Source: Pseudanabaena sp. PCC 6802 (GTDB lineage Bacteria > Cyanobacteriota > Cyanobacteriia > Pseudanabaenales > Pseudanabaenaceae). Taken from it: a DNA stretch of 64,000 bases. Where the stretch lies: the NCBI RefSeq assembly GCF_000332175.1, contig NZ_KB235914.1, positions 3,406,868 to 3,470,867 of the forward strand, written 5' to 3'. Within the stretch, counting starts at the first letter, position 1. Every line of letters starts with the position of its first letter. A program made the translations under genes and the position numbers. Shown one piece after another: positions 2,845 to 59,141 of the stretch. The notes below the pieces were generated by a model. It did not search any database. It had not been told where the DNA came from and saw only the letters and a program-made list of their open reading frames with translations.

Positions 2845-4977
2845 ATGACGACTACACCTCAGGCTTCATCTGTCAGTACAGCTCCCGCTACATCTATCCC
2901 ACCGCAGTTTCCTCTATCCATCCTGTCGGTTAGTCGCGAGGAATTCTACGGTCAGGACGACGAACACCAACCCTTACAATTGCAGATTGATGGGACGCTG
3001 CCAAACGATCTCCAGGGTCACGTGTTTATTATCAGTCCCGTCGGTTCGATCGACTCGAAAGGGATTCCTGATACGCCAATAGTTCTACCCGCCGCCGACG
3101 GTTGGACTCCTCTCTACAATGGCGATGGCATGATCTACCGTCTCGACTTCGATCGCTCAGCGCAGGGGAAGGTATCGTTATGCTCGCGGCTAGCAAAACC
3201 ACCGTGCTACTATGCCGATGTTGCCACCAATAACGATCCCAGATTTGCCCCGCTCAAGTTTAGTAATATGGGTATTGCTCGGCAATCTAGCAAGCTTGGT
3301 TCTCGCAATCAACTCAATACAGCTTTTTTGCCCATGCAGTTTGGTGCGGAGGAGCACGGGCGGATGCTGGTTACCTGGGATCCCGGTCGTCCCTACGAGA
3401 TCGATCCCAAAACGCTAGCAACAGTTACGCCTATGGGAAGTAATGCAGAATGGAAGCCAGTCAATCCTTTTTTAACGGAGGCTGTTCCAGGCCCATTCCC
3501 ACTAGTGGTTACCTCGGCTCATCCCTGCTTTGACTCCCATGCCGATCGGGTATTTACGGTTAATGTAGGGAAGTCATTATCTACACTCCTATCCGTCGAG
3601 GAATTTATCGCCCAGAGTGAAGAGTGGGTCAAACGCATCGATGGCTGGTTGAAGCAAATTCCTTTTTTAAGAGAGATTGCTCGACTAATCTTTGCTTTCT
3701 TGAGAGTATTCATAGGATTTCTCAGGGATATATGGCACTTCCTCCAGAAATTTTTCCCAAGCATCAAAAATAATAACTTTGTCGATCTGCTGCGTTGGGA
3801 TGGTGCGGGGGCTATGGAAAGATGGAAAGTCGTCCTGCCCGACGGCAGGCCAGTCAAAATTGCAGAAACCGCACATCAAATAGGAGTAACCCGTAACTAT
3901 GTAGTGTTGATGGATACTGCTTTTAAACTGTCACCAGAGCAACTTCTTCCGCCTCCTGCATACAAAAAGGGAAAAGAGGCAGAAATTCTATTGCGTGACT
4001 TATTCGATTATCCCCAGACTGCAGAAACGAAGCTATACATCGTCTCTCGCAGCGACCTGCAACCTGGCAAACTTACCGTCACAGCTAGGCAGTTAGTCAT
4101 CCCTCGCGAGACAGCTCACTTTCTCGTCGATTATGAAGATGCTGATGGTATAGTCGTGCATCTGATGCATGTATGTGCCTGCGATGCTTCGGAATGGCTG
4201 AATCATAGCGATCGCACTGTAAGCCAACCCAATACCTCAGGCGATAACCCGCGCGCTGGGATAGTTGTCAGCCCTATGGATATTAACTGGGTGGGGCGCT
4301 ATACGATCGACGGTGCCACTGGTAGCCTGACCGGCCAAATGCTCAGACGGCAGGATGCCTATACGTGGGGACCATCGATCTATGCCTACCGTAATATGCC
4401 ATCGGGGCAGATCGATAATCTCTATTGGAACTGTTGGGGTTCTTGGAATCAATTGCTGACACAGCATGTTTTCTCTTTATATAAAGACTATAAATACCGC
4501 ACGATTCCAGCTAGCGATATTCCCGCGATCGCATTGCAAGGTAAAGCATCTAACCTGTTCAGAGTAGAAACCAGCACCTTGAATATTGTCGATACCTACA
4601 CTTTCCCAACAAACTACTTTGGTAGTTCGCCGCAATTTGTGCCGCGCCCAGGGAATGAGAACGATTCTACACATGGATATATTACCTGTACCGTGCTTTA
4701 CGACGAGCCGCACAGCGATCCGCCAGTGAAGAGCGAGATTTGGATTTTTGATGCGGCTAATCTCAAGCAGGGTGCTATCTGTAAATTAAGCCACCCTCAG
4801 CTTAAGTTGGGCTTTACCGTGCATACTACATGGGTGGCAAAGGTGGAGGAGCGCAATGCTGCCTATAATATCCCCGTCCGTCACGACTATGAGGAGATTC
4901 TGAAGAAGCAGCCAGAGGCAGATAGGGAGCTAATTCAGGAATTGTTCGAGCAATATATTTACCCAAATTTTTCGTAG
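2845..4977 (+). CDS. Carotenoid oxygenase (RPE65/CCD family), extended form
   Basis: Non-haem iron enzymes of this family cleave carotenoids or related polyenes. The ATG at 2845 is chosen over the TTG at 2830 because GGGGAGGA lies 6 bases ahead of it; this gives 710 residues, against about 450-550 usual for the family. Candidate iron-ligand histidines lie at H226 (SAHPCFDSH), H344 (AETAHQIG), H439/H442 (VVHLMHV) and H660 (FTVHTTWV). Between the first two is an aromatic, amphipathic insert of about 45 residues (residues 260-310, with FAFLRVFIGFL and HFLQKFF) that could bind membrane or carotenoid. The TpsA-type gene starts 3 bases after its stop, so the two may be cotranscribed. The substrate cannot be told. 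Confidence 0.85.
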   Translation: MTTTPQASSVSTAPATSIPPQFPLSILSVSREEFYGQDDEHQPLQLQIDGTLPNDLQGHVFIISPVGSIDSKGIPDTPIVLPAADGWTPLYNGDGMIYRLDFDRSAQGKVSLCSRLAKPPCYYADVATNNDPRFAPLKFSNMGIARQSSKLGSRNQLNTAFLPMQFGAEEHGRMLVTWDPGRPYEIDPKTLATVTPMGSNAEWKPVNPFLTEAVPGPFPLVVTSAHPCFDSHADRVFTVNVGKSLSTLLSVEEFIAQSEEWVKRIDGWLKQIPFLREIARLIFAFLRVFIGFLRDIWHFLQKFFPSIKNNNFVDLLRWDGAGAMERWKVVLPDGRPVKIAETAHQIGVTRNYVVLMDTAFKLSPEQLLPPPAYKKGKEAEILLRDLFDYPQTAETKLYIVSRSDLQPGKLTVTARQLVIPRETAHFLVDYEDADGIVVHLMHVCACDASEWLNHSDRTVSQPNTSGDNPRAGIVVSPMDINWVGRYTIDGATGSLTGQMLRRQDAYTWGPSIYAYRNMPSGQIDNLYWNCWGSWNQLLTQHVFSLYKDYKYRTIPASDIPAIALQGKASNLFRVETSTLNIVDTYTFPTNYFGSSPQFVPRPGNENDSTHGYITCTVLYDEPHSDPPVKSEIWIFDAANLKQGAICKLSHPQLKLGFTVHTTWVAKVEERNAAYNIPVRHDYEEILKKQPEADRELIQELFEQYIYPNFS

Positions 4978-58236: not shown

Positions 58237-58365
58237 CACACACTAAGATTGGTTTACGATGAGTATTACGATGAATATTGAATATTCTAGCCCACACTTT
58301 AGCCCGTACTGCCAAGGGCATTGTTAACCACTGCACCCGCTAACTAGCCGCGCAAAAACAAAAAT

Positions 58366-58596
58366 ATGGCAATCAGCAATCGCAAGCTCTCATGCTCTTT
58401 ACCGCATCATCTTTACAATCAGTTCAAGGCATGGAAAGTCAAGCAGGGGATTGCTACTGATAGTAAAGCGCTGATCGAAATCGTAGAGCAATTTTTAAGT
58501 TTTACTCCACCAGACAGCAATCCTGGCAGCGAACTTAACGGCGAGTATGCGACTAAAGCCGAGGTACGGTTACTCATGGGAAAATTAATGCCCTGA
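58366..58596 (+). CDS. Short product of a two-frame gene: putative ribbon-helix-helix-like protein
   Basis: 76 residues. The N-terminus (SCSLPHHLYNQFKAWKVKQG followed by DSKALIEIVEQFL) looks like a CopG-type ribbon-helix-helix: a short strand, then two helices. A polar linker follows, then ATKAEVRLLMGKLMP and the stop. At codons 72-73 the frame crosses a GGGAAAA slippery heptamer; a -1 shift would continue into the frame ending at 59141 and replace the last three residues. DNA binding is inferred from pattern only. Confidence 0.6.
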   Translation: MAISNRKLSCSLPHHLYNQFKAWKVKQGIATDSKALIEIVEQFLSFTPPDSNPGSELNGEYATKAEVRLLMGKLMP

Positions 58597-58625
58597 GTGA
58601 AAAGTTGGAGGCATTCACCCAGGGC
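58561..58625 (+). promoter_or_regulatory. Candidate programmed -1 ribosomal frameshift signal
   Basis: GAGG (58561-58564) acts as a possible internal Shine-Dalgarno 13 bases ahead of GGGAAAA (58578-58584), read G-GGA-AAA in the zero frame. A 5-base spacer (TTAAT) precedes a hairpin: GCCCTG pairs with CAGGGC and GTGAA with TTCAC around one A-C mismatch (58590-58601 with 58614-58625), 12-base loop. The zero-frame TGA (58594) lies in the stem. Confidence 0.55.
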
Positions 58626-59141
58626 GATCGCAAGTTAGCCGACAATAAAGTTAACGGCACTGAACTCCCACCCCAACCTGAAGATAGCTCTAAACAAAAC
58701 GCTGACACTTCTCATTCTAAAGATTCTGCCAATCCATCTCACGATCGAGATGATGACAACAGGGAACTAGATAGCGATCGCCAAGTGCATGACGAAGGTA
58801 CTCAATCTTCTACTGCTGAAGCCACCGATATCCCAGCAGATAAAGCTCCAGAACCAGAAGCGCCATCGCCAATTGCATGGCAAGTATGGACTTATCTGGA
58901 AAGGCATCGCAAAGATACGCTCCAATGCATCGGCACTTTTGATTCGGAATGGAAGGCGCAAAGATTTATCGCCGATGCCGAACGCCAGAATAGGAACCAT
59001 TTGCGCGTTCACTATGAAATTCATCCCCTTTTAGAATTAGACGAGGAAGAATCGCGTAATGGTACGAGCGATGACACGGGTGATGCGGAAGTGATAACCG
59101 ATGCGATCGACGTAGAAATAATGTCCGATAGTGGTGCCTAA
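58584..59141 (+). CDS. Frameshift extension: acidic protein with C-terminal globular domain
   Basis: Read after a -1 shift at 58584, this frame adds 185 residues to the 73 of the upstream frame, 258 in all. It begins INALSEKLEAF, continuing a coiled-coil heptad pattern from the other frame (EVRLLMGK), then a long acidic, Ser/Asp-rich disordered stretch (to about 58860), then a compact region WQVWTYLERHRKDTLQCIGT, WKAQRFIADAERQNRNHL, HYEIHPLLEL and an acidic tail. Independent translation would need a TTG at 58605 without any ribosome-binding site. A plain frameshift mutation or sequencing error is the alternative. Confidence 0.55.
   Translation: MNALSEKLEAFTQGDRKLADNKVNGTELPPQPEDSSKQNADTSHSKDSANPSHDRDDDNRELDSDRQVHDEGTQSSTAEATDIPADKAPEPEAPSPIAWQVWTYLERHRKDTLQCIGTFDSEWKAQRFIADAERQNRNHLRVHYEIHPLLELDEEESRNGTSDDTGDAEVITDAIDVEIMSDSGA

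Follow-up and report, generated by a model that had tools for sequence, protein, structure and literature searches.

Two overlapping open reading frames lie between positions 58,366 and 59,141 of a 64,000-nucleotide stretch of Pseudanabaena sp. PCC 6802 DNA (the whole of which is called the window here), the second being in the -1 frame of the first. This raises the question of whether they represent two genes, the remains of a broken one, or a single gene whose product is extended by a change of frame during translation. Judged from the comparative sequence evidence described below, the locus is very probably one regulator-like gene, present as a single chromosomal copy in Pseudanabaenaceae-like cyanobacteria and not mobile, whose two isoforms would arise by programmed -1 ribosomal frameshifting.

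The zero-frame ORF ends with ...ATG GGA AAA TTA ATG CCC TGA, and a slip of one base at the heptamer produces a fused reading of 73 + 185 = 258 aa, the -1 frame being open to 59141 (Table 1). A sequence-only reading of this locus had described an in-phase GGGAAAA, a 5-nt spacer, an 11-bp hairpin with one mismatch, a zero-frame stop inside the stem and products of 76 and 258 residues; each element was recovered at its exact position and both lengths were reproduced. It had also counted a GAGG as a third recoding element. This tetranucleotide is indeed present (58561-58564, 13 nt 5' of the heptamer), but it is not conserved among relatives, being absent in one genus (g7, see below) and replaced by GAGA or GAAA in about one third of the genomes of another (g5), so it is probably no working part of the signal, and a stimulatory role for it was rejected. 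When the entire 64-kb window was examined, one other in-phase X_XXY_YYZ heptamer was found within 15 codons of an ORF end with a -1 frame of at least 60 codons. This site (CCCAAAA, near 3406) was dismissed as a chance occurrence, as the frame near whose end it lies is spurious and falls within a genuine gene of more than 500 codons. At the frameshift locus, the best argument against chance comes from sequence comparison, namely that 31 genomes have kept the entire arrangement.

Table 1. Coordinates of the features of the frame-broken gene in the window.
Feature	Position	Strand	Description and basis
Zero-frame ORF (short product, 76 aa)	58366..58596	+	Ribbon-helix-helix (RHH) domain and start of coiled coil; profile and fold matches to RHH proteins
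RHH domain (predicted)	58366..58503	+	Strand at about residues 7-13, helices 14-27 and 32-45; AlphaFold2 model, Foldseek and VIA-align matches
Slippery heptamer G_GGA_AAA	58578..58584	+	GGGAAAG (g6) or GGGGGAG (g5, g7) at the equivalent position of 30 other genomes
-1 frame segment, 185 codons and stop	58584..59141	+	Rest of coiled coil, acidic linker, C-terminal domain and DAIDVEI tail; purifying selection in relatives
Spacer TTAAT, 5 nt	58585..58589	+	4-6 nt in relatives
Putative stimulatory hairpin	58590..58625 (arms 58590-58601 / 58614-58625)	+	Folding; covariation across genera, 6/10 pairs changed on both sides
Zero-frame stop TGA in hairpin 5' arm	58594..58596	+	9 nt past the heptamer; kept in 31/31 frame-broken genomes, 12 nt past the heptamer in g7
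Conserved C-terminal domain (AWQVWTYLERHRKDTL...FDSEWKAQRF...LRVHYEI.P)	58860..59051	+	22 invariant residues across genera
Conserved acidic tail motif DAIDVEI	59100..59120	+	Alignment of relatives

Homologs were searched for with a profile of the C-terminal domain in approximately 390 cyanobacterial genomes, and the gene was detected in 32 of them, which belong to one family and five genera and include species of Pseudanabaena as well as MAGs (e.g., UBA999 and UBA8156). No copy was found outside the family among these genomes by the profile, and none was seen in a collection of 84,980 species. The genera are labeled g1 (the window), g4 (with an unbroken gene), g5 (Pseudanabaena, 26 genomes), g6 (two genomes) and g7 (two genomes); the same search revealed no copy in the genera g2 and g3. 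The 5.62-Mb host genome has a single copy. In 31 of the 32 homologs, representing four genera, the second half is encoded in frame -1 relative to the upstream RHH-like ORF, and the break is at the homologous position. The alignment of homologs proposed in the sequence-only reading thus showed a persistent frame break together with an in-phase slip site, a maintained spacer and compensatory changes in the stem. As the two open frames overlap by only 34-40 nt in most genomes, the change of frame must occur within this stretch. A sequencing error or a decaying pseudogene was rejected and has a negligible probability, since the same break recurs in 31 independent genomes, from isolates as well as MAGs, with purifying selection on both parts of the gene (pN/pS of 0.18 for the N domain and 0.08 for the C domain), even though short homopolymers often give rise to erroneous frame breaks and the g4 homolog is unbroken. 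Separately, one locus (L006 in genome G011) has a second frame break about 60 nt past the heptamer at a run of ten C, which is probably a MAG assembly error.

The g4 homolog is a single ORF of 515 codons with the RHH domain, the coiled coil and the C-terminal domain, and its RIDYLSNRLDSL aligns with the fused KINALSEKLEAF of the window. An uninterrupted homolog without a slippery site had been named in advance as an observation that would speak against recoding, and the existence of one genus that does without the shift does count against it to this extent. This is one of 32 genomes, however, its fused ORF corresponds to the predicted frameshift product, and the rpoB tree, with the groupings (g3,(g1,g4)), (g7,g5) and (g6,g2), nests it among frame-broken relatives, suggesting that the frameshift is probably ancestral and the g4 form derived. 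Support in this tree was 0.999 for g5 plus g7 and just 0.64 for the pairing of g1 with g4. With regard to the order of events, GGGAAAR was probably the older motif, GGGGGAG probably arose in the ancestor of g5 and g7, and the g4 gene is probably a later fusion.

The slip site is in the correct phase at the junction in the window and in the other 30 frame-broken genomes, whereas the exact motif named in the sequence-only reading was not conserved, as most relatives carry GGGGGAG instead of GGGAAAR: GGGAAAA occurs in one genome, GGGAAAG in two (g6) and GGGGGAG in 28 (g5 and g7). The junctions read G GGA AAA TTA ATG CCC TGA in g1, G GGA AAG TTC AGG CCC TGA in g6, G GGG GAG TCC AAA GCC TGA in g5 and G GGG GAG TGC TAC GCT TGG TGA in g7. 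Only the window and g6 (three genomes) therefore have a canonical X_XXY_YYZ heptamer, and G_GGG_GAG in the 28 genomes of g5 and g7 is outside the rule. In g5, re-pairing of a tRNA one base back appears feasible solely on the G run. In g5 and g7, slippage would take place on G_GGG_GAG with tRNA-Gly re-pairing from GGG to GGG, and tRNA-Glu would either re-pair imperfectly (GAG to GGA) or not yet have entered. Laboratory precedent for GGGGGAG as a shift site is weak: G_GG.G constructs in Escherichia coli were thought to act as Shine-Dalgarno sites and not as shift sites, and G_GG.A_AA.A was inefficient in E. coli according to earlier work (PMC4066793). On balance, we lean toward the view that G_GGG_GAG is a natural and efficient cyanobacterial -1 slippery site. 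It would have taken the place of the canonical G_GGA_AAR in the ancestor shared by two genera, with no loss of hairpin, spacer or stop, and would act by a one-tRNA slip (GGG to GGG) or an imperfect slip of two tRNAs, a type of slippage considered poor under the present rules for bacteria.

The same G-rich motif is central to the main rival of the frameshift, namely translational coupling or internal initiation, in which the second ORF would restart at a codon overlapping the stop (CTGA in g1, g5 and g6; TTG/GTGA in g7), GGGGGAG would serve as a Shine-Dalgarno sequence, and two separate proteins would be made. GGGGGAG would make a good Shine-Dalgarno sequence in g5 (8 nt before CTG) and g7 (8 nt before TTG), and G_GG.G has been suspected of -1 frame initiation in E. 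coli reporters (PMC4066793), but a strong sequence of this kind is missing at this point in the window and g6, and in 29 genomes the overlapping codon is CTG and never ATG, GTG or TTG. The -1 frame of the frame-broken homologs contains no conserved ATG, GTG or TTG at all; in three genomes the first such codon is 233 nt downstream, beyond conserved domain sequence with a pN/pS of 0.09. The substitutions inferred between heptamer and stop provide further evidence, as 8/11 are synonymous in the -1 frame vs 1/11 in the zero frame (p of about 0.002-0.008 under a simple uniform model and with a small sample). For example, VLRLV is unchanged through three changes between the two g7 genomes, with the zero-frame tail altered from CY to FC. 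The pattern of these substitutions shows the -1 frame to be translated from the slip site onward. This protection extends to the part before the overlapping codon, where changes are synonymous in the -1 frame (3/3 in g7 and 1/1 in g6) and the zero-frame residues change, which argues against re-initiation at that codon. Moreover, a start codon there would be buried by the conserved hairpin. The best or tied-best hydrophobic heptad register is equal on both sides of the junction in four genera, in agreement with the earlier observation that the coiled-coil pattern continues into the second frame; this continuity, together with the fusion in one frame in g4, also speaks against two separate proteins. 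Internal initiation is thus considered unlikely.

Additional support for recoding comes from the structure downstream of the heptamer. In the window, the hairpin consists of 11 pairs plus an A.C mismatch and has a folding energy of -17.1 kcal/mol (z = -2.83 vs dinucleotide shuffles). In all 28 copies that were folded individually the hairpin started 4-6 nt past the heptamer, and three further g5 junctions kept both stem arms. When 20 distinct sequences were aligned, the stem occurred in one register with 89.5% of cells paired, and 6 of the 10 pairs had changed on both sides (e.g., GC to CG and CG to UA), a covariation score that was reached by none of 500 shuffles and by no slid register. Stem variation within g5 alone is one-sided, so the covariation rests on the comparison between genera. 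Within g5, the tree of 26 genomes revealed no changes in the heptamer and most stem positions, whereas the sites of the linker that follows mostly had 5-9 changes. Synonymous divergence was 0.25 in the 13 codons after the slip site vs approximately 0.6 in the remaining part of the -1 frame. Transcriptional slippage, by which RNA polymerase would add one base on the A4 or G5 run and restore the frame in part of the mRNA, would not involve a covarying hairpin at the spacing of a ribosomal signal. Although such slippage would be expected to yield the same protein products and a homopolymer is present at the junction, known sites use longer runs (more than 7 A or more than 8 T; PMC3711429), and this explanation appears very improbable. 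A candidate pseudoknot was also observed in g5, in which the loop GGGA would pair with a downstream UCCC (96.6% of cells pair); it is unproven, as it shows no covariation and its CCC doubles as a conserved Pro codon.

Under the proposed ribosomal mechanism, ribosomes would start at the ATG at 58366 and translate the RHH domain and the first turns of the coiled coil, after which a fraction of them, on reaching G_GGA_AAA with the hairpin lying 5 nt further on, would move back by one base. Non-slipping ribosomes would stop at the TGA within the stem and release the 76-aa protein, whereas slipping ribosomes would produce the 258-aa fusion, in which the coiled coil continues in the same heptad register and is followed by the acidic linker and the C-terminal domain. 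We infer that the event is ribosomal and that the two products are an RHH dimer and a longer version with the same DNA-binding half; as both would share this half, the frameshift would set their ratio through the efficiency of the slip. The retention of a TGA soon after the slip site in 31/31 genomes suggests that the cell needs the short form and does not make it merely as waste. In analogy to OrfA and OrfAB of the IS3 family (PMC5009743), this form may compete or assemble with the long form on DNA.

The RHH-like nature of the first protein, proposed in the sequence-only reading, was corroborated by fold and profile matches in the window model and in relatives. The AlphaFold2 model of the N-terminus has an extended segment followed by the two helices given in Table 1, and its matches in Foldseek and VIA-align were mostly RHH proteins (NikR, MazE, MatP and ParD), each of which was weak when taken singly (Z up to 5.0). 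At the profile level, a g7 member matched the Arc-like repressor phrog_6506 (E = 3.7e-6), the best match to the CopG_antitoxin family of Pfam among 17 members had an E of 2.6e-4, and a weak match to Mnt was obtained (0.023). The window protein alone is too diverged and gave no significant family match. The N-terminus is therefore predicted to have an RHH fold of DNA-binding type, and binding of a dimer to DNA through the strand would follow from this fold. The acidic extension described earlier was also found, as the shifted part contains an acidic linker and a conserved C-terminal domain. Sequence searches with this domain gave no match to families of Pfam, NCBIfam or PHROG or to a solved structure. 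For the C part of g5, the AlphaFold2 model was poor overall (mean pLDDT of 58), and only the middle beta domain, which resembles small SH3-like barrels, was confident. Between coiled coil and linker, g5 and g7 have an inserted small beta domain resembling SH3-like barrels (KPLFNSL...IKSL; residues ~45-105 of L010:1498-2346:-), which g1, g4 and g6 do not have.

Several known systems resemble this gene in part. Bacterial X_XXY_YYZ plus hairpin signals (such as those of dnaX, IS3/IS911, phage tail genes and csoS2) likewise combine an in-phase heptamer, a 4-6 nt spacer and a downstream hairpin with a zero-frame stop soon after and two nested products. In contrast to them, the gene described here is non-mobile, encodes an unrelated product with no recognized enzyme domain, has GGGGGAG in most relatives and lacks a conserved upstream Shine-Dalgarno stimulator. 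The IS3-family OrfA/OrfAB pair is similar in that a short DNA-binding-type product acquires a second domain by -1 fusion, and OrfA is able to act alone as a regulator (PMC5009743). However, no transposase catalytic domain was detected in the shifted ORF by family search, the gene is not multicopy, it has no plasmid or phage match, and its N-terminus is RHH and not helix-turn-helix. RHH regulators with an extra C-terminal part (Mnt, NikR and MatP) share the predicted RHH N-terminus, with a weak profile match to Mnt and structural matches to NikR and MatP, and the coiled coil after the RHH domain would be a further feature shared with Mnt; they differ in that here the C-terminal part, which has no sequence match to theirs, would be joined by frameshifting. 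Searches of open-licence papers for frameshifting in Pseudanabaena, in cyanobacteria and in RHH proteins yielded no account of this gene and none of a frameshift in an RHH-type DNA-binding gene. To our knowledge, well-supported frameshifts in non-mobile bacterial genes are few. The evolutionary record of this gene comprises a canonical slip site, its exchange for a G run that left hairpin, spacer and stop in place, and a single probable loss, in which the frames became fused; this record offers a natural test case for the features that a bacterial slip site requires. The gene further suggests that the ribosome can determine in what proportion a DNA-binding protein is made with or without a partner domain. 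Automated annotation will probably record such a gene as two fragments or as a pseudogene.

With regard to genomic context, an origin from a mobile element or phage was rejected, as there were no matches to plasmid, phage or viral contigs in plasmid and phage collections and no neighbor genes common to the genera compared, other than generic ABC-type ATPases. Upstream of the gene in the window, approximately 100 nt 5' of the ATG, a direct repeat TTACGATGA occurs twice, 12 nt apart (58254-58274); it was not seen in the other genera checked and might be an operator for the RHH protein. In g5 loci (e.g., L010), a conserved TATAAT-type -10 element and a leader ending in AAGGGCAAATA-ATG are present within 130 nt 5' of the N ORF, and a single promoter and a single ribosome-binding site apparently serve both frames in this genus.
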